Below, in pieces: positions 1,007 to 6,125 of a DNA stretch of 15,044 bases. The DNA is from Sulfurimonas sp. (GTDB lineage: Bacteria; Campylobacterota; Campylobacteria; Campylobacterales; Sulfurimonadaceae). A program made the position numbers and the translations under genes. The stretch is taken from assembly GCA_026987995.1 (NCBI GenBank), contig JALSMC010000175.1, positions 1 to 15,044 of the forward strand, given 5' to 3'. The notes under the pieces were generated by a model. It was not told the DNA's origin. It made no database searches and saw nothing but the letters and a program-made list of their open reading frames with translations. Every line of letters begins with the position of its first letter. Position 1 is the first letter of the stretch.

Positions 1007-1735
1007 CTATCGCAATACATAATTAAGTGTAATTGCAAATTCTTTTGGAAATTGAAAAAGTGCATCTTTTACAGAAATAGGAAAACTCTTTTCTATCGCA
1101 CTTTTTACAGATTTTTTAAAAATAGAGTGCCCTTTTACAAAAGCTATTTTCTTTACACTTCCATTAGATAAAAGCAAAAATTTTACTGTAACTTCACCTT
1201 GAATATTTCTTCTTCTAGCAGTTCTAGGATAGTGTTTATTCTTGTTTATCGCTTCTCTTAATTTTGCGAAAAAAATATTTTGTTTTTTACGAAGTTCTTC
1301 CTCTTCCTCTCTTTGTTTCTGTCTATCTTGTTGAATCATTTTTTCTTTTAATAGCACATCTGTTTTAATTTTTTGCATACTTGCTATATGTAACTCTTGT
1401 GTTAGAGGCTTTGAATTTTCTTGTTTTTTGAAAACTTTTTTTGCAATCGGTTCTGTTTTTTTCTTGATTGCTTTTTTTATTTTTGTTTTAGTTACTGTTT
1501 TTTGAGATTTTTTCTTTTTTTGCACTTTTCGTGGCGATAATTTTTTTTCACTAAAGTCTTTAGGTATGCTTTTTTGTTTTGGCACACAGAGCAGAGAAAC
1601 TAGCATCCTTGATTCTTTTACAACTGGAGAGCATTTATTTGAAAACTCTATCTCCTCTAAAAAATAGACTAAAGTCCCAAATAAAGTGATATAAAGTACA
1701 ATACTAAGAACGAAAGAGTCAAAATATCTTTTCAT
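1007..1735 (-). CDS. tonB: TonB energy-transducing protein
   Basis: TonB links the inner-membrane proton motive force to outer-membrane receptors. This 242-residue protein has one N-terminal membrane helix (about residues 8-27). A very Lys-rich linker follows (about 53-110), in place of the usual Pro-rich one. Next is a charged, probably coiled segment (120-152) and a C-terminal TonB domain (about 155-242) with KHYPRTARRRNIQGEVTVKF followed by LSNGSVKKIAFVKG. The YP and G-x-V-x-V-x-F pattern is typical of the domain. Its ATG overlaps the TAA of the upstream ferredoxin-type gene by one base (TAATG at 1733-1737), implying translational coupling. No exbB or exbD is visible here, so it must use a set encoded elsewhere. 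The adjacent receptor is the obvious partner. Confidence 0.87.
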   Translation of the reverse strand: MKRYFDSFVLSIVLYITLFGTLVYFLEEIEFSNKCSPVVKESRMLVSLLCVPKQKSIPKDFSEKKLSPRKVQKKKKSQKTVTKTKIKKAIKKKTEPIAKKVFKKQENSKPLTQELHIASMQKIKTDVLLKEKMIQQDRQKQREEEEELRKKQNIFFAKLREAINKNKHYPRTARRRNIQGEVTVKFLLLSNGSVKKIAFVKGHSIFKKSVKSAIEKSFPISVKDALFQFPKEFAITLNYVLR

Positions 1736-3162
1736 TAGTTCTTCATATGCACTTTATGAGAATGGTGTGAACCACCATGAGATTTTCCATACACATGTGC
1801 AGTATAAATTCTAGAGAGGTTCAAAGTAAGATAAAAGATAATAAAAAGAGATGCAAAAGTAAACGCAATTACTTTAGACATTTTACTCGCTTGAAATAAA
1901 TTTACTCTTTTATACATAATATAGAATGCCCATAAAGATGCTAAATAAGGGAAAAATGAAAACACTCCAAGCCATGCATCTTTTCTTGAAGCTAAATTTA
2001 CAACATTTACGACATCTAAGTGGAACCCATATATAAAGCCATTCGCTATATCAGCATATGTATGTGTAAAAAAACTATGGATAAGATGCGACAAACCGCC
2101 TATTAAAAAAAGAGGAGCAAATGCATAACCTAGTGTATAGAAAGTCTTTTTATACTCTGCTTTTAAAGATAATGAAGCTGCCCACATTCCAAAAAAGACT
2201 AAAAACAGAGTAATAACATTTGCATACAAAAATGCAAAAAGTCCTACAGCATCTAAACTTCCAAAATCATAGATACCTTTAAAATATTCAGCTGTTTTTG
2301 TCCAAGGCATGTAAGAAGCTACTGGTGAACGACCAAGCCCATGATGAAATGACATTGTTATAGATATAGCAGCTGTAATTAAAATATATGTCCAAACTTC
2401 AATTTTGTCTATTTTTAGTTTTTCATAGAGTGATTTTCCTGGAGGTACGATACTAAAACTAATTGCATCACATGCACTACTACAGTCCATACAGAGGGTA
2501 CAATCTTCCATGGAATTTTTTTTGTTGAATGTAAAAGGTTTTAAGTTATAGTGACATGCCGTAGCACAATCAAAAGTTTTACACTCTGAGCAGTCGCTTT
2601 TGTATGAGCTTAGCCATGTAAACGAAACTCTCTGATAAGCCTTTGTTAAACTTCCTATCGGGCATACATATTTACAATAACTCATATCTTTATAAAGATA
2701 GTAGAGTAAAAAAGCCAAAGCGGTTATGACAGTAAATAAAATAGCAGTCACGAGTGGCATACGATAAAAACCTGGAAGAGTATAGCTTATAGCCCACCAA
2801 CCAATTACTATAAGTAAAAGACCCCACCAAGGATTTTTCAGCCATTTGGGCATCTCTTTTTTTAGACCATATTTTGTGATGTACTTCCCAAGAAATCCAT
2901 GAGGACAAATTCCACAAAAAATACGACCAAAAGTAGCAAGAGTTACAACCATAAAAAGAGACCAGAAAAGTCCCCAAAAAACCTCTTTTGTAAAAGTATT
3001 TTCTTTTGTAGGGCTTTCAAATCCAAGATAAACAGCATATATAAAGAGTGCCAGCACAAACAACCTAACCCCAAGTATAAATTTTTGGTTTTTAAAGATA
3101 AAACCTAAAATGGGCATTGAATATATATCATTTTTATTTCTATTTTTGTTGTGCTTTATCAT
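1735..3162 (-). CDS. NapH/CcoG-like polytopic membrane 4Fe-4S protein with His-rich tail
   Basis: A 475-residue integral membrane iron-sulfur protein. Visible in order are a first helix pair (about 27-80), CGICPHG at 83-89, two helices (112-155), and CKYVCPIG at 163-170. Then come two ferredoxin-like Cys sets (C191, C194, C199, C203 and C221, C224, C227, C231), and several more helices rich in His. The tail ends in a His cluster (about 456-472, with GGSHHSHKVH). The N-terminal half matches the NapH/CcoG/RdxA layout, where a quinol- or ferredoxin-linked protein moves electrons across the inner membrane. The C-terminal half, with further helices and His residues, could bind heme or metal; that is inference. 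It lies between receptor and tonB: the receptor stop is 12 nt upstream and forms part of the Shine-Dalgarno (TAAGGA). The context suggests reduction of an imported metal or chelate. Confidence 0.82.
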   Translation of the reverse strand: MIKHNKNRNKNDIYSMPILGFIFKNQKFILGVRLFVLALFIYAVYLGFESPTKENTFTKEVFWGLFWSLFMVVTLATFGRIFCGICPHGFLGKYITKYGLKKEMPKWLKNPWWGLLLIVIGWWAISYTLPGFYRMPLVTAILFTVITALAFLLYYLYKDMSYCKYVCPIGSLTKAYQRVSFTWLSSYKSDCSECKTFDCATACHYNLKPFTFNKKNSMEDCTLCMDCSSACDAISFSIVPPGKSLYEKLKIDKIEVWTYILITAAISITMSFHHGLGRSPVASYMPWTKTAEYFKGIYDFGSLDAVGLFAFLYANVITLFLVFFGMWAASLSLKAEYKKTFYTLGYAFAPLFLIGGLSHLIHSFFTHTYADIANGFIYGFHLDVVNVVNLASRKDAWLGVFSFFPYLASLWAFYIMYKRVNLFQASKMSKVIAFTFASLFIIFYLTLNLSRIYTAHVYGKSHGGSHHSHKVHMKN

Positions 3163-3174
3163 TTTTATATTTCC

Positions 3175-5382
3175 TTAAAATTTAGCAGACAATCCGGCAA
3201 GAAAAGTTCTACCAGGGTTTACAGTAAGACCCATATCTCTGATGTCATATAAACCATCGTCATTTCTATCTCCAGTAACACGCGGCATCATGTAGTACTG
3301 TTCATCAAATAGGTTTTCAACTTTTCCAAACACTTCTATATCAAAGCTTGATATTTTTGTATTGTACCTAGCTCTTAGATTTACTACTGCAAATCCATCT
3401 ACTTTTACTTCATTCAATTCATCTGCATACTGAGAAGACCTGTAGTTTACATCAGCTGTTAACAAGAGGCTTGATAAAATTCTATAATTTCCTTCTAAAT
3501 AGACTGTATGATTTGATGTTCTAGGTACAGTGTTACCGGCTAAATCATAAATTCCTTCAACATAATCTCCACCCCTTCCACCATTTAAGGTAGAATCAAA
3601 TAGAATTTTATTGTATTCATTATATTTAGTATACTTTGAATCTAGGTAAGTGTAATTAAAAACAAATGATAAATCTTTTGCCTTGTTGCTATTAATAGCA
3701 ATCTCTAAACCTCTATTTTGAACATCTGCCATATTGTCATAGTAAACATCTACGCCACTAGTGGACGCATAGTTACCACTACTTCTGCCAATAACACCCT
3801 TCCTGTCTAGTTGAAATATTGAGACCTCATAAGATAGTAAATCAGTACTTTGTCTTAAACCAATTTCATAGTTATATGTTTTCTCTGTATTGATATTTGT
3901 GTTATTAAAGTATGTACCACTATAAGTTGATGTAGACATATCTCCGGCAAATATTTGCGAAAGTGTTGGGACTCTAAAACCTGTCGATACACTTGTAAAT
4001 AGGACTTGTTTAGCATTAAGCTTATATGTTCCACCAATTCTATAAGAACCTTCATTGTAGTCAGTATTCCAATGAGTTGAAGTTAAATTATTTGTATAAT
4101 CATAATTCATATTATCATACCTAGCATTGAGTGTAGCAGTAAAATCTTTTGTAAAACTATACTTCACTTCACCATAAATGGCATTGATGTTTTCTTTAGA
4201 GCTTGTGTCACTTGTAACTTCTCCAATAGGGTGAAATATTGCATTACGATCTGTATAGTTAACTCTATATTTACTATTTTTATCCTCTTCATTTCTCGCT
4301 AAATCCACACCTAGCATTGAAGCTATTGTAGTCCCATTCATTCTATACTCAGATTTTAATCCTCTTTGGAGTGTATTTGCATAAGAAGCATAAAGGTGAT
4401 CATCTCTAACACCATCTCCAACACTATCATAAGCACTACTTCTATTTTCTGTAGTGTCATCATATTGATAAATCTGTGCCATTAAGTTGGAGTCATTATC
4501 AAAATCTTTAGAGTATGTTAAAAATAGCTTTGTTAAATCAATGTCATATTTAGTTGCATATCCAACTTCACCCTTACTTGTAGGGTTAGTATCAACATTA
4601 TTAGTATATATCCCGTTACCTACAGTAGTTCCATCAAAAGTTGAATAAGTTATAGAGCCAGTATCGTTCTCATATCTTAAAGTTTTATCTACACCAAAAG
4701 TAATATCACTGCTGTCATCTATGTAGTACTGAAACTTTCCATTGATTGATTTTGTGTAGTAGTCAGAATCTTCCCAGTATCCATCACTTTTTTTATAACT
4801 TGCCTGTATATTTGCTGCAAAGTTTTCTGCCCTCATATTGTATGAAGCTAAATATTTTTGGTAACCATAGCTACCTTGTTCGGTTGCGACAAGACCTTCA
4901 TTTTTGTTTTTAGGTCTTTTTGTTGTGATGATAATTGCACCGGCTAAAGCATCGTTACCATATAGATATGAAGCACCACCCTTTAAAACCTTAATAGATT
5001 CAATATTATCCATATCTATATTTATACTACCAGCTCTCTCTTGAACAGGTACCCCATCTATAACTATGGCAACACCAGGTTTTTCTCCCATATACATTTC
5101 GGTACCAATACCACGGATATGTATTTTATTAGAATCGCCTTCATTTTTTCTCACTGTAACACCAGGAAGAGTATTTAATACATCTGCAAGATTTCTAGCA
5201 TGAAACTCTTCGACTTCTTTTCCATTCATTATTGATGTACTTGAAATCTCTGTAGTTTTATTTGCAAACTTATCATCAATGGTAGATGACTCAACCTCTA
5301 TCATACCTATATCTTGTGCTTGAATACTCAGCACAAAGGTTGCTGTTGTAAGTAGAGATAAAAAAGTAAGGTTCTTTTTCAT
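3175..5382 (-). CDS. TonB-dependent outer-membrane receptor
   Basis: A 735-residue outer-membrane receptor. Residues 1-22 form a signal peptide (MKKNLTFLSLLTTATFVLSI, then a cleavage site around AQA). A probable TonB box, GMIEVESS, follows directly. The plug domain (about 40-165) contains LADVLNTLPGVTVR, IHIRGIG, VAIVIDGVPV and YGNDALAGAIIITTKRP, all classic for the family. The rest is a beta barrel ending in Phe (GLSAKF), as expected for outer-membrane assembly. It is the first gene of a minus-strand operon with the 4Fe-4S protein, TonB and PepSY-TM. The ligand cannot be read from sequence; a siderophore or other iron chelate is the usual partner of this neighbourhood, and copper or another metal is possible. 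The ATG is preceded by AAGG about 8 nt upstream. Confidence 0.93.
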   Translation of the reverse strand: MKKNLTFLSLLTTATFVLSIQAQDIGMIEVESSTIDDKFANKTTEISSTSIMNGKEVEEFHARNLADVLNTLPGVTVRKNEGDSNKIHIRGIGTEMYMGEKPGVAIVIDGVPVQERAGSINIDMDNIESIKVLKGGASYLYGNDALAGAIIITTKRPKNKNEGLVATEQGSYGYQKYLASYNMRAENFAANIQASYKKSDGYWEDSDYYTKSINGKFQYYIDDSSDITFGVDKTLRYENDTGSITYSTFDGTTVGNGIYTNNVDTNPTSKGEVGYATKYDIDLTKLFLTYSKDFDNDSNLMAQIYQYDDTTENRSSAYDSVGDGVRDDHLYASYANTLQRGLKSEYRMNGTTIASMLGVDLARNEEDKNSKYRVNYTDRNAIFHPIGEVTSDTSSKENINAIYGEVKYSFTKDFTATLNARYDNMNYDYTNNLTSTHWNTDYNEGSYRIGGTYKLNAKQVLFTSVSTGFRVPTLSQIFAGDMSTSTYSGTYFNNTNINTEKTYNYEIGLRQSTDLLSYEVSIFQLDRKGVIGRSSGNYASTSGVDVYYDNMADVQNRGLEIAINSNKAKDLSFVFNYTYLDSKYTKYNEYNKILFDSTLNGGRGGDYVEGIYDLAGNTVPRTSNHTVYLEGNYRILSSLLLTADVNYRSSQYADELNEVKVDGFAVVNLRARYNTKISSFDIEVFGKVENLFDEQYYMMPRVTGDRNDDGLYDIRDMGLTVNPGRTFLAGLSAKF

Positions 5383-5493: not shown

Positions 5494-5522
5494 TTAACTT
5501 GTCTCAAAAGTTAGTGTAAAAT
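5494..5522 (+). promoter_or_regulatory. Promoter candidate for the 33-residue peptide mRNA
   Basis: TTAACT (5494-5499), a 17-nt spacer and TAAAAT (5517-5522), preceded directly by TG. Transcription would begin near 5528, at or near the first base of ATCAGTTGG, which is repeated in inverted form at 5733-5741. A second possible -10, TATGAT at 5541-5546, would start the RNA near 5553. Confidence 0.45.
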
Positions 5523-5585
5523 TATTTATCAGTTGGCGATTATGATTGTTAAAGCATTGTGAGGAGATAGGTGGGACAGGGTCAG

Positions 5586-5600
5586 CCTTTAATCTAAAGG
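5586..5600 (+). promoter_or_regulatory. Hairpin covering the Shine-Dalgarno of the 33-residue ORF
   Basis: CCTTTA (5586-5591), a 3-nt loop, then TAAAGG (5595-5600) form a perfect 6-bp hairpin. The right arm is most of the ribosome-binding site AAAGGAG (5596-5602), which lies 5 nt before the ATG at 5608. Folding would hide the site and reduce initiation. Confidence 0.55.
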
Positions 5601-5607
5601 AGTAACA

Positions 5608-5709
5608 ATGCGAGTCGCTCTCATTATTGTTATAATTTTAGTTCTCTTAGAATTAAGATTGTATTCAGAAATTTTGTTTAGAAATTTCACGTATAAAAAA
5701 AGCTTATGA
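5608..5709 (+). CDS. 33-residue hydrophobic peptide, candidate type I toxin
   Basis: The reading frame begins MRVALIIVIILVLLELR and ends in FTYKKSL. Residues 3-14 are almost all Val, Ile, Leu and Ala, enough for a short membrane helix. An amphipathic, net basic C-terminal part follows. A strong Shine-Dalgarno (AAAGGAG) is placed correctly but inside a hairpin. Short hydrophobic peptides with a basic tail, a folded leader and an antisense RNA are the hallmark of type I toxins (Fst, Ldr, Ibs, AapA), which damage the membrane when overproduced. No residue-level match to a named family is claimed. Alternatives are a leader peptide for the 111-residue gene downstream or a small membrane-protein subunit. 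The stop codon lies within the stem of the hairpin at 5706-5727. Confidence 0.6.
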   Translation: MRVALIIVIILVLLELRLYSEILFRNFTYKKSL

Positions 5710-5727
5710 GGAGTTCGCGCTCCTCAT
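5695..5727 (-). terminator. Intrinsic terminator of the antisense RNA, possibly bidirectional
   Basis: Arms ATGAGGAG and CTCCTCAT (5706-5713 and 5720-5727) form a perfect 8-bp stem with a 6-nt loop. On the minus strand AAGC and seven T follow (5701 to 5695). On the plus strand the stem is followed by only TTTG, so it would stop the peptide mRNA less efficiently. Confidence 0.65.
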
Positions 5728-5740
5728 TTGTCCCAACTGA
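5695..5740 (-). ncRNA. Short antisense RNA candidate (about 45 nt), convergent with the small-peptide mRNA
   Basis: On the minus strand a strong promoter (5773-5746) predicts a start at about 5741-5738. An 8-bp hairpin and a run of seven T end the RNA near 5695. The transcript would be fully complementary to the last codons and 3' region of the peptide mRNA. Its 5' part carries GTTGGGACA and ATGAGGAG, which resemble blocks in the 5' leader of that mRNA, in swapped order. It has no reading frame of note. The pairing logic recalls antitoxin RNAs of type I systems. Expression is predicted, not shown. Confidence 0.55.
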
Positions 5741-5745
5741 TTGCA

Positions 5746-5773
5746 ATTATATCATATAAATTATTTACATCAA
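5746..5773 (-). promoter_or_regulatory. Antisense RNA promoter
   Basis: Minus strand: TTGATG (5773 to 5768), 16-nt spacer, TATAAT (5751 to 5746), with TGA directly before the hexamer giving an extended -10. There is no gene to its left on this strand before the terminator, so a short untranslated RNA is the natural product. Confidence 0.6.
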
Positions 5774-5789
5774 AATATCAAGGGAAAAT

Positions 5790-6125
5790 ATGAAAGGGAC
5801 TATCGTGGTAACTTACAAAATACTATGCAAAGCGGACTTAAACAAAGAACTATCTCTTAATGAACTACTAGAGAATGAGAAAATAGCTAAAATCATCAAA
5901 AGCGAATATGCCAAAGGGTTTAGAAACTTGAGTCTAAACGCAGAGCCAAACGAGTCTGTCATCAAGATACAGACACAAAAAGAGTTACATTCATTTGAGG
6001 TAGACAAAGATGATTTTGCTGATATCTTAGACTTAGCAGAAGAAGATGCTCAAAATAAAAAGCTCTTAAAAAAAGAGTGTGAGAGAGTAGAACTTGTCGA
6101 TATCTCTACGAACACCACTCCTTAA
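5790..6125 (+). CDS. Hypothetical 111-residue soluble protein
   Basis: I do not recognise a family. The protein starts MKGTIVVTYKILCKADLNK, which looks like a beta strand followed by helix. It has a middle part with alternating polar and hydrophobic residues (SVIKIQTQKELHSFEVDKDD) and a charged helical end (DILDLAEEDAQNKKLLKKE). No signal peptide, membrane helix or metal-binding Cys/His pattern is seen. The start is supported by AAGGGA 4 nt upstream of the ATG; a TATAAA at 5754-5759 is a possible -10. Its last 20 nt overlap the end of the convergent metallopeptidase gene. It lies downstream of the 33-residue peptide on the same strand and could receive read-through from it. Confidence 0.7.
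   Translation: MKGTIVVTYKILCKADLNKELSLNELLENEKIAKIIKSEYAKGFRNLSLNAEPNESVIKIQTQKELHSFEVDKDDFADILDLAEEDAQNKKLLKKECERVELVDISTNTTP

Follow-up and report, generated by a model that had tools for sequence, protein, structure and literature searches.

An often multi-copy candidate type I toxin-antitoxin cassette in Sulfurimonas and Sulfurovum

Organization of the locus

The window, i.e., the whole stretch of 15,044 nts of Sulfurimonas sp. DNA analyzed here, contains genes that we guess by eye to encode a TonB-like protein (1007-1735) and a ferredoxin-like membrane protein (1735-3162), the latter adjoining a TonB-dependent receptor (3175-5382). Further on, positions 5790-6125 encode a protein of 111 aa that has no family assignment and occurs in 16 of the 41 genomes searched, all of the genus; the locus under study lies just upstream of it. 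Here, a sequence-only reading had proposed a type I toxin-antitoxin locus of about 280 bp, and the elements which it listed are all found (Table 1). The stretch contains an ORF with a good Shine-Dalgarno (SD), complementary ends and two promoter-like sites that face each other; a terminator-like hairpin on the minus strand and an unusually stable fold are also present. The convergent promoters correspond to one promoter-like site on the plus strand (TTAACT-17-TAAAAT, 5494-5522, 9 of 12 consensus matches) and one on the minus strand (10 of 12). However, promoter-like sites are weak evidence by themselves, because the scan found 6 of them against 3.3 ± 1.6 expected. The complementary ends are ATCAGTTGG (5528-5536) and CCAACTGAT (5733-5741), and a second complementary pair is formed by AGGTGGGACA (5569-5578) and TGTCCCAACT (5729-5738). 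The minus-strand hairpin (5727-5706) is followed by AAGCTTTTTT; the promoter-like and the terminator-like site of this strand delimit a predicted short antisense RNA of about 44 nts. The RNA spanning 5527-5757 has a predicted energy of -64.3 kcal/mol (z = -4.32), and none of 200 shuffles was equally stable. What places these elements beyond chance is their conservation at other loci. No tRNA or tmRNA was found, and a search of the window against Rfam returned no family, the best sub-threshold hits in the locus being snoRNA models at chance level (E 3.4-4.9).

TABLE 1. Features of the cassette, numbered on the forward strand of the window.
Feature	Position	Strand	Evidence or remark
-10 of the toxin mRNA, TAAAAT	5517-5522	+	Promoter scan; predicted start near 5529
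10-nt direct repeat AAATTATTTA, left copy	5519-5528	+	Right copy at 5758-5767; flanks the cassette; possible target-site duplication
5' UTR of the toxin mRNA	5529-5607	+	Near-invariant block GGTGGGACAGGGTCAGCC at 5570-5587; 52-copy alignment; pattern search with 0 reversed-control matches
Closing stem, 5' arm TCAGTTGG	5529-5536	+	Covariation score above all 100 simulated null maxima; 98.5% of cells paired
5' CGATTA, partner of coding sequence 5624-5629	5537-5542	+	One mismatch in the window; P = 0.03 against simulated null; 99.0% of cells paired in 52 copies
GCATTG, start-codon mask via CAATGC 5606-5611	5554-5559	+	P = 0.02; 97.4% of cells paired
Shine-Dalgarno AAAGGAG	5596-5602	+	Sequence; SD-like at the same place in the family alignment
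Toxin-like ORF, 33 codons in the window copy	5608-5709	+	Residues 1-19 (5608-5664, MRVALIIVIILVLLELRLY) correspond to the family peptide
Hairpin within the coding sequence	5635-5659	+	Covariation across the family
Insert, approximately 32 nt	5666-5697	+	Takes the place of the usual TAA stop and adds 14 residues to the ORF; seen against L083 and further copies
Predicted short antisense RNA, about 44 nt	5696-5739	-	Complementary to the mRNA 3' arm; deduced from where the promoter-like and terminator-like sites lie
mRNA 3' hairpin; read on the minus strand, it resembles a terminator for the antisense	5706-5727	+	Covariation, terminator scan
Closing stem, 3' arm CCAACTGA	5733-5740	+	Covariation and pair counts
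Antisense promoter TTGATG-16-TATAAT, extended -10 (TG)	5746-5773	-	10 of 12 consensus matches

A family of related cassettes

The locus belongs to a group of unnamed cassettes, often several per genome, whose members were found by nucleotide, pattern and covariance-model searches alike. The nucleotide search, covering 60 related genomes, identified clear relatives in G001 and G018, a second copy in the genome of the window itself (G000:C328) and a remnant in G016; at the loose threshold of E ≤ 10 all 60 genomes match, nearly all of these matches being noise. The remnant (L034/L132, G016:C59:21500-21660) keeps the 5' UTR block, which is followed by a T-run, and is without peptide ORF. Alignment of the relatives yielded the conserved block GAGGAGnnAGGTGGGACAGGGTYAGC, which, allowing up to 3 mismatches, matches 10 of 397 phylum genomes (reversed control, 0). 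A stricter pattern run across genome contigs gave 59 stretches, assigned to Sulfurimonas, Sulfurovum, Sulfurovaceae or broader groups (Helicobacteraceae, Campylobacterales, Epsilonproteobacteria). The one exception, L105, lies in a Ruminococcus MAG, is without ORF and was rejected as a chance match; L134 and L136 were likewise rejected on reading. Sulfurimonas indica NW8N (L077) carries the copy MRLTLVIVIILLLLEVRLY.

A hydrophobic peptide of 18-20 residues is encoded at 65 of the 73 distinct motif places. The other eight are the window (33 aa), L109 (43 aa), L064 (35 aa), the broken ORFs of L056, L080 and L099, L034 with no ORF, and the non-member L105. Segmentation was passed by 63 of the 73 places; L034, one copy of L051, L056, L064, L068, L074, L075, L080, L099 and L105 were dropped, several of them solely because the 5' search pattern missed them. 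Leaving out also the window, L071 and L109 (long inserts), L120 (short upstream region) and L084 (no 5' part) gave 58 copies, reduced to 52 non-redundant ones after removal of near-identical copies. One of the 52, L058, has a wrong 3' boundary in the scored data, which is correct in alignment A2 except for three missing end columns.

A covariance model built from the 52 copies matches, at the threshold of E ≤ 1e-5, 29 of the 135 Sulfurimonas genomes and, in the family that contains Sulfurovum (that of G328), 9 of 175 genomes, with up to 12 matches per genome and a single one in many positive genomes. Among the positives, G016, G446 and G516 have weak or partial matches only. In a phylum-wide draw, 15 of 397 genomes match at E ≤ 0.01, 11 of them at E < 1e-7 and 4 weakly. 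The plasmid and phage collections gave no match by blastn with one copy (L032), and the IMG/VR collection none to the block pattern. No named family is matched, and within the Campylobacterota, where the sequence-only reading envisaged a possible new family, the hosts found are the sulfur-oxidising Sulfurimonas and Sulfurovum.

The encoded peptide

The peptide has 19 residues in 40 of the 52 copies, 20 in 11 and 18 in one. Its C-terminus is conserved and cationic. It ends with Y in 49 copies and with F in the remaining 3, and the residue at -3 is R or K without exception (52/52). Five different codons (AGA, AAA, CGA, AGG, and CGG) specify this R or K among the 41 members of 18-19 aa, and the reading frame is preserved across the three length variants. 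A rough count over 780 pairs gives a pN/pS of about 0.52, a value to be read considering that RNA pairing constrains the codons too. Selection on the ORF, a check attached to the original proposal, is therefore borne out by the frame kept through the length variants and by the constant -3 and terminal residues. The 33-residue hydrophobic ORF is present as described, but its length is atypical: the family peptide has 19-20 aa, and the 33 codons derive from a 32-nt insert placed after codon 19. Indeed, L083, which is the same locus in another genome, has a plain 19-aa ORF. The product appears to be a membrane peptide of 19 residues that probably acts as a self-toxin.

The window peptide belongs to no family of Pfam, NCBIfam or PADLOC, and six 20-aa relatives to none of NCBIfam and Pfam; since the protein-family search requires a minimum of 20 residues, the 19-aa peptides fall below it. 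Together with the lack of a match of the loci in Rfam (see below), this agrees with the initial statement that no named family is recognizable.

A selected fold of the putative toxin mRNA

Covariation among the 52 copies shows that a predicted mRNA fold has been selected, which consists of a closing stem between the 5' and 3' ends, a hairpin inside the coding sequence, a mask of the start codon located ~50 nts upstream, and a 3' hairpin. As a null, helices were also scored in 100 alignments simulated along the inferred tree. Both hairpins and the closing stem each score above all 100 null maxima; the start-codon stem reaches P = 0.02, and the helix that joins the 5' end to the coding sequence P = 0.03. 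Over the whole structure, 97.3% of 1869 cells are paired, as compared to 31.6-53.4% when the structure is slid; double-change cells number 210 against 61.6 ± 7.9 in shuffles, and 16 of the 36 pairs show double changes. The all-pairs column test gives borderline signals: E is 0.01 at best and 0.12-0.75 for the remaining four structural pairs, and of the 11 column couples with E ≤ 1, 6 fall outside the structure. RNAalifold, unaided, recovers both hairpins as well as the closing stem; in its model the start codon lies opposite AUUGUUAU, a part of the ORF. At pairs with G-U in minority, G-U cells exceed A-C cells in all five helices (14:1, 19:0, 10:3, 44:7, and 8:2); it is therefore the toxin mRNA, and not the complementary strand, whose folding is under selection.

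The earlier suggestion of a hairpin-buried SD was right for the window as far as the SD and a CCTTT..AAAGG hairpin can be read from its sequence. In the family, however, it is the masking of the start codon that covaries, and the SD is predicted to be mostly unpaired: across the 52 copies, the predicted mean unpaired probability is 0.74-0.75 for the SD and 0.16 for the AUG. Opening the region from the SD to codon 2 is predicted to cost 9.3 kcal/mol (51 copies) vs. 6.1 kcal/mol once the flanks are shuffled (8 shuffles for each of 25 copies). A putative second masking helix, formed within the ORF by AUUGUUAU with RUAACAAU, is paired in 98.8% of cells and nearly invariant. In silico removal of the last 15 nts, or of everything after the stop codon, does not open the AUG (unpaired 0.16, 0.14, and 0.13; 51 copies), so that the model lends no support here to the hok/AapA step in which 3' trimming activates the mRNA.

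Alternatively, the near-invariant GGUGGGACAGGGUYAGCC block could replace the 5' end as partner of the 3' arm. In such a state, GGUGGGACAG would pair with CUGUCCCAAC and AGCCUUUAA with UUAAAAGCU, with 86.7% of cells paired; the GGUGGGACAG/CUGUCCCAAC complementarity is conserved but invariant, 7 of 52 copies breaking one pair. Given that it displays 0 double changes and does no better than shuffles, this alternative state is kept as a possibility.

That the RNA fold is the strongest signal of all could suggest that the cassette is a structured non-coding RNA with a merely incidental ORF, and the remnant L034 in G016, where the 5' block is retained without ORF, points in the same direction. Nevertheless, we consider this explanation very improbable in view of a frame kept through 18, 19 and 20 aa, of the R/K at -3 and the final Y/F found in every one of the 52 copies, of the conserved start codon and SD, and of the pN/pS of about 0.52, which is rough and includes a contribution of the RNA constraint.

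Promoters and the predicted antisense RNA

Joint conservation of the peptide and of the antisense promoter had been proposed as a check, and the antisense -10 turned out to be the best conserved promoter element of the cassette. Its TATAAT is exact in 51 of 52 copies (1.7 expected from shuffles) and preceded by TG in 39; the sole exception is L058, whose 3' boundary is wrong in the data scored. On the minus strand, this hexamer is found 6-8 nts before AGTTGG, the motif at which the 3' arm of the mRNA ends. The toxin -10 is less strong: six of six positions match in 18 copies and five of six in 23, the shuffled expectations being 2.2 and 12.6.

A terminator-like site on the minus strand coincides with the cassette hairpin in 15 of 51 copies under a strict rule and in 47 of 51 under a relaxed one, the latter figure being without shuffled control; a further-on site exists in 2 of 51 copies only. 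For this reason, a short antisense RNA of about 45 nts is favored, which may possibly be longer through read-through. A point that weighs against the toxin-antitoxin reading is the shortness of its predicted T-tract (4-5 T, 7 in the window); the A-run at the stop codon counts 4 in 42 of 52 copies, 5 in 9, and is not scored in one. Such an RNA would overlap mainly the mRNA 3' arm, starting at the complement of the closing stem and including the 3' hairpin. On the plus strand, a terminator-like site is found nearby in 16 of 51 copies (shuffled fraction 0.00), the other 35 having none. The 11 copies collected from the G328 genome have 10 different hairpin loops; this diversity would suit copy-specific recognition, or it may be neutral.

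Insertion, flanking regions and distribution

Genome G010 has the downstream gene, whose upstream region can be aligned on both sides of the insertion point, and the cassette is absent. The cassette is flanked by a direct repeat of 10 nts in the window and of 12 nts in L083; over the 58 copies, however, repeats of 8 nts or more occur in 4 vs. 3.5% in the null, and therefore only the window locus, together with L083, which is the same locus, is suggestive of a target-site duplication. The window's toxin -10 may have come from the promoter region that the cassette invaded, as TAAAATT is present there in G010 too.

Part of the insert at the toxin stop recurs elsewhere. Its hairpin-capable core of 26 nts (CAGAAATTnTGnTTAnnAATTTCACG, up to 2 mismatches) is found in 3 of 135 genus genomes, once in each (window 5666-5691, L071 1066-1091, and L109 6614-6639), and always inside a cassette of the same family. 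In two of them it lies at the toxin stop codon and lengthens the peptide without changing the frame; in the third it lies within the 5' UTR. The insert was also considered as a dispersed repeat, an explanation rejected given the single copy in its own genome.

The flanking proteins, taken with a crude ORF pick, number 66 and fall into 46 clusters. Instead of a toxin, the cassette could encode a small regulatory membrane peptide whose level is tuned by the antisense RNA. The single match in many positive genomes, like the absence of matches in the plasmid, phage and IMG/VR collections, fits a housekeeping regulator as well as a toxin-antitoxin system. On the other hand, up to 12 copies per genome, a patchy presence (29/135), the diverse neighbours, the masking of the start in several layers and the likeness to the E. 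coli Ibs toxins (see below) speak against such a regulator, and we judge this explanation unlikely.

Comparison with known type I systems

The cassette peptides resemble the Ibs toxins of E. coli, whose IbsC reads MMRLVIILIVLLLISFSAY. When IbsA-E are compared with the family profile, the shuffle p ranges from 0.0002 to 0.0097; the likeness is weaker, with p from 0.0016 to 0.073, if the C-terminal residue is kept fixed. The features of Ibs/Sib, drawn from the available parts of PMC8309996 and PMC4147584, that find a counterpart here are a hydrophobic peptide of 18-19 aa with MMR/MMK start and Y end, several copies per genome, neighbouring pairs included, and an antisense RNA that begins, in the cassette by prediction, beyond the end of the ORF, a hairpin lying right after the stop codon. 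Unlike the peptides of the present family, Ibs peptides lack R/K at -3; furthermore, Sib covers the whole ORF plus the ribosome binding site (PMC4147584, available part), whereas here the hairpin with its short T-tract suggests an early end, read-through being possible. The Rfam model SIB_RNA (RF00113), with which E. coli SibC scores 133.8 bits, matches neither the window nor L031, L032, L033, L044 and L087. Between the two peptide groups there is a likeness, and common ancestry may or may not lie behind it.

In the AapA/IsoA system of H. pylori, the toxin mRNA is made inert by a 5'-3' interaction with masking of the start from upstream and from within the ORF (PMC6733600, available part), and covariation indicates a long-distance 5'-3' interaction of this type in the cassette mRNA. 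Such a fold, masked upstream and in the ORF as in aapA3, and hosts from the same wider bacterial group (PMC6733600, available part) would be accounted for if the cassette belonged to the Helicobacter family itself. Yet AapA3 has 30 aa and IsoA3 has 80 nts opposite the ORF (same source), as against peptides of 19-20 aa here; the two differ in peptide length, in antisense position and in masking, which concerns the SD in AapA and the AUG here. Instead of an antisense of ~80 nts opposite the ORF, the cassette has a conserved promoter beyond the 3' arm and a predicted RNA about half that size, and the SD is predicted to be free, not sequestered, with the AUG paired. Membership in the AapA/IsoA family is accordingly judged very improbable. 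We file the cassette as a variant of the type I toxin-antitoxin systems that stands outside both Ibs/Sib and AapA/IsoA, the latter being set apart by its published description.

The hok mRNA is also subject to 5'-3' pairing. With hok/Sok the cassette shares the metastable mRNA hairpins as a control layer (PMC6733600, available part); it differs in its peptide of about 19 aa and in that a possible GTG leader frame in the 5' UTR, seen by eye, is stopped in some copies. Of the designs originally invoked (fst/par and aapA/IsoA), the type I reading as such is supported, and the cassette is nearer to hok/AapA with a predicted 3'-overlapping antisense than to fst/par.

In TxpA/RatA and BsrG/SR4 of Bacillus subtilis, the antisense overlaps the 3' end of the toxin mRNA; their peptide and RNA are not known to be related to those of the cassette, and an end-to-end mRNA fold is not known from these systems. 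The point of likeness is an antitoxin that stimulates mRNA degradation (PMC4147584, available part). Our literature search, for which most subscription papers were outside the scope, found no title or abstract describing the cassette family in Sulfurimonas or Sulfurovum. For CjpT/CjrA, which may be a type I system of Campylobacter, the search found no paper with CjpT. In the available part of PMC11264685, the words 'ibs', 'Campylobacter' and 'Sulfurimonas' do not occur.

Taken together, the data point to a type I toxin-antitoxin cassette that is spreading or duplicating (probability of about 0.8), the best reading of the sequences being an Ibs-like peptide combined with an AapA/hok-like mRNA fold and a predicted 3'-end antisense. 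In this scheme, the full-length folded toxin mRNA would be translationally inert and its ends protected. The antisense RNA, of the predicted short size or longer upon read-through, would pair with the 3' arm, perhaps starting from the hairpin loop, and thereby open the end-to-end fold and expose the mRNA to RNase III decay. If the antisense supply falls, the surviving mRNA would be translated into peptide in amounts sufficient to enter the inner membrane and depolarise it. More tentatively, the cassette could represent an unnamed type I family, in which the start codon of an end-to-end closed mRNA is masked by two elements that compete for the AUG (AUUG upstream, AUUGUUA within the ORF) and the antitoxin is confined to the 3' arm and never at the translation start. 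With the Ibs-like peptides of L133, L193-L197, L201, L202, and L209, the 19-20 aa peptides ending in Y might then form one broad superfamily that has come under the control of no fewer than three unrelated RNA modules.

The very short peptides of type I toxin-antitoxins make these systems easy to overlook. The copies of this cassette that were searched gave no match in Pfam, NCBIfam, PADLOC, or Rfam, yet it is multi-copy in environmental Campylobacterota. Its 52 divergent natural copies constitute a covariation data set on the silencing of a toxin mRNA by folding, and the paralogs within one genome make antisense specificity testable. They also raise the question whether Ibs-like peptides are of repeated origin or of common ancestry.

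A second peptide family of 19-20 aa, ending in K/R/E-x-Y/H (e.g., MLFRIVVLILVCLVFATKLY and MQQLLLIVILLMFVITKLH), was observed in the middle of each of the loci listed above. It belongs to a different Campylobacterota family (f9), perhaps Arcobacteraceae. Ahead of the ORF, the sense strand of these loci carries a terminator-like hairpin and a T-run, and the peptide is possibly a toxin under leader-terminator type control. Such an ORF is present in 9 of the 16 loci read, one of them ending in K-C-Y, and blastn with one copy matches 29 of 104 genomes, many over a short stretch only.
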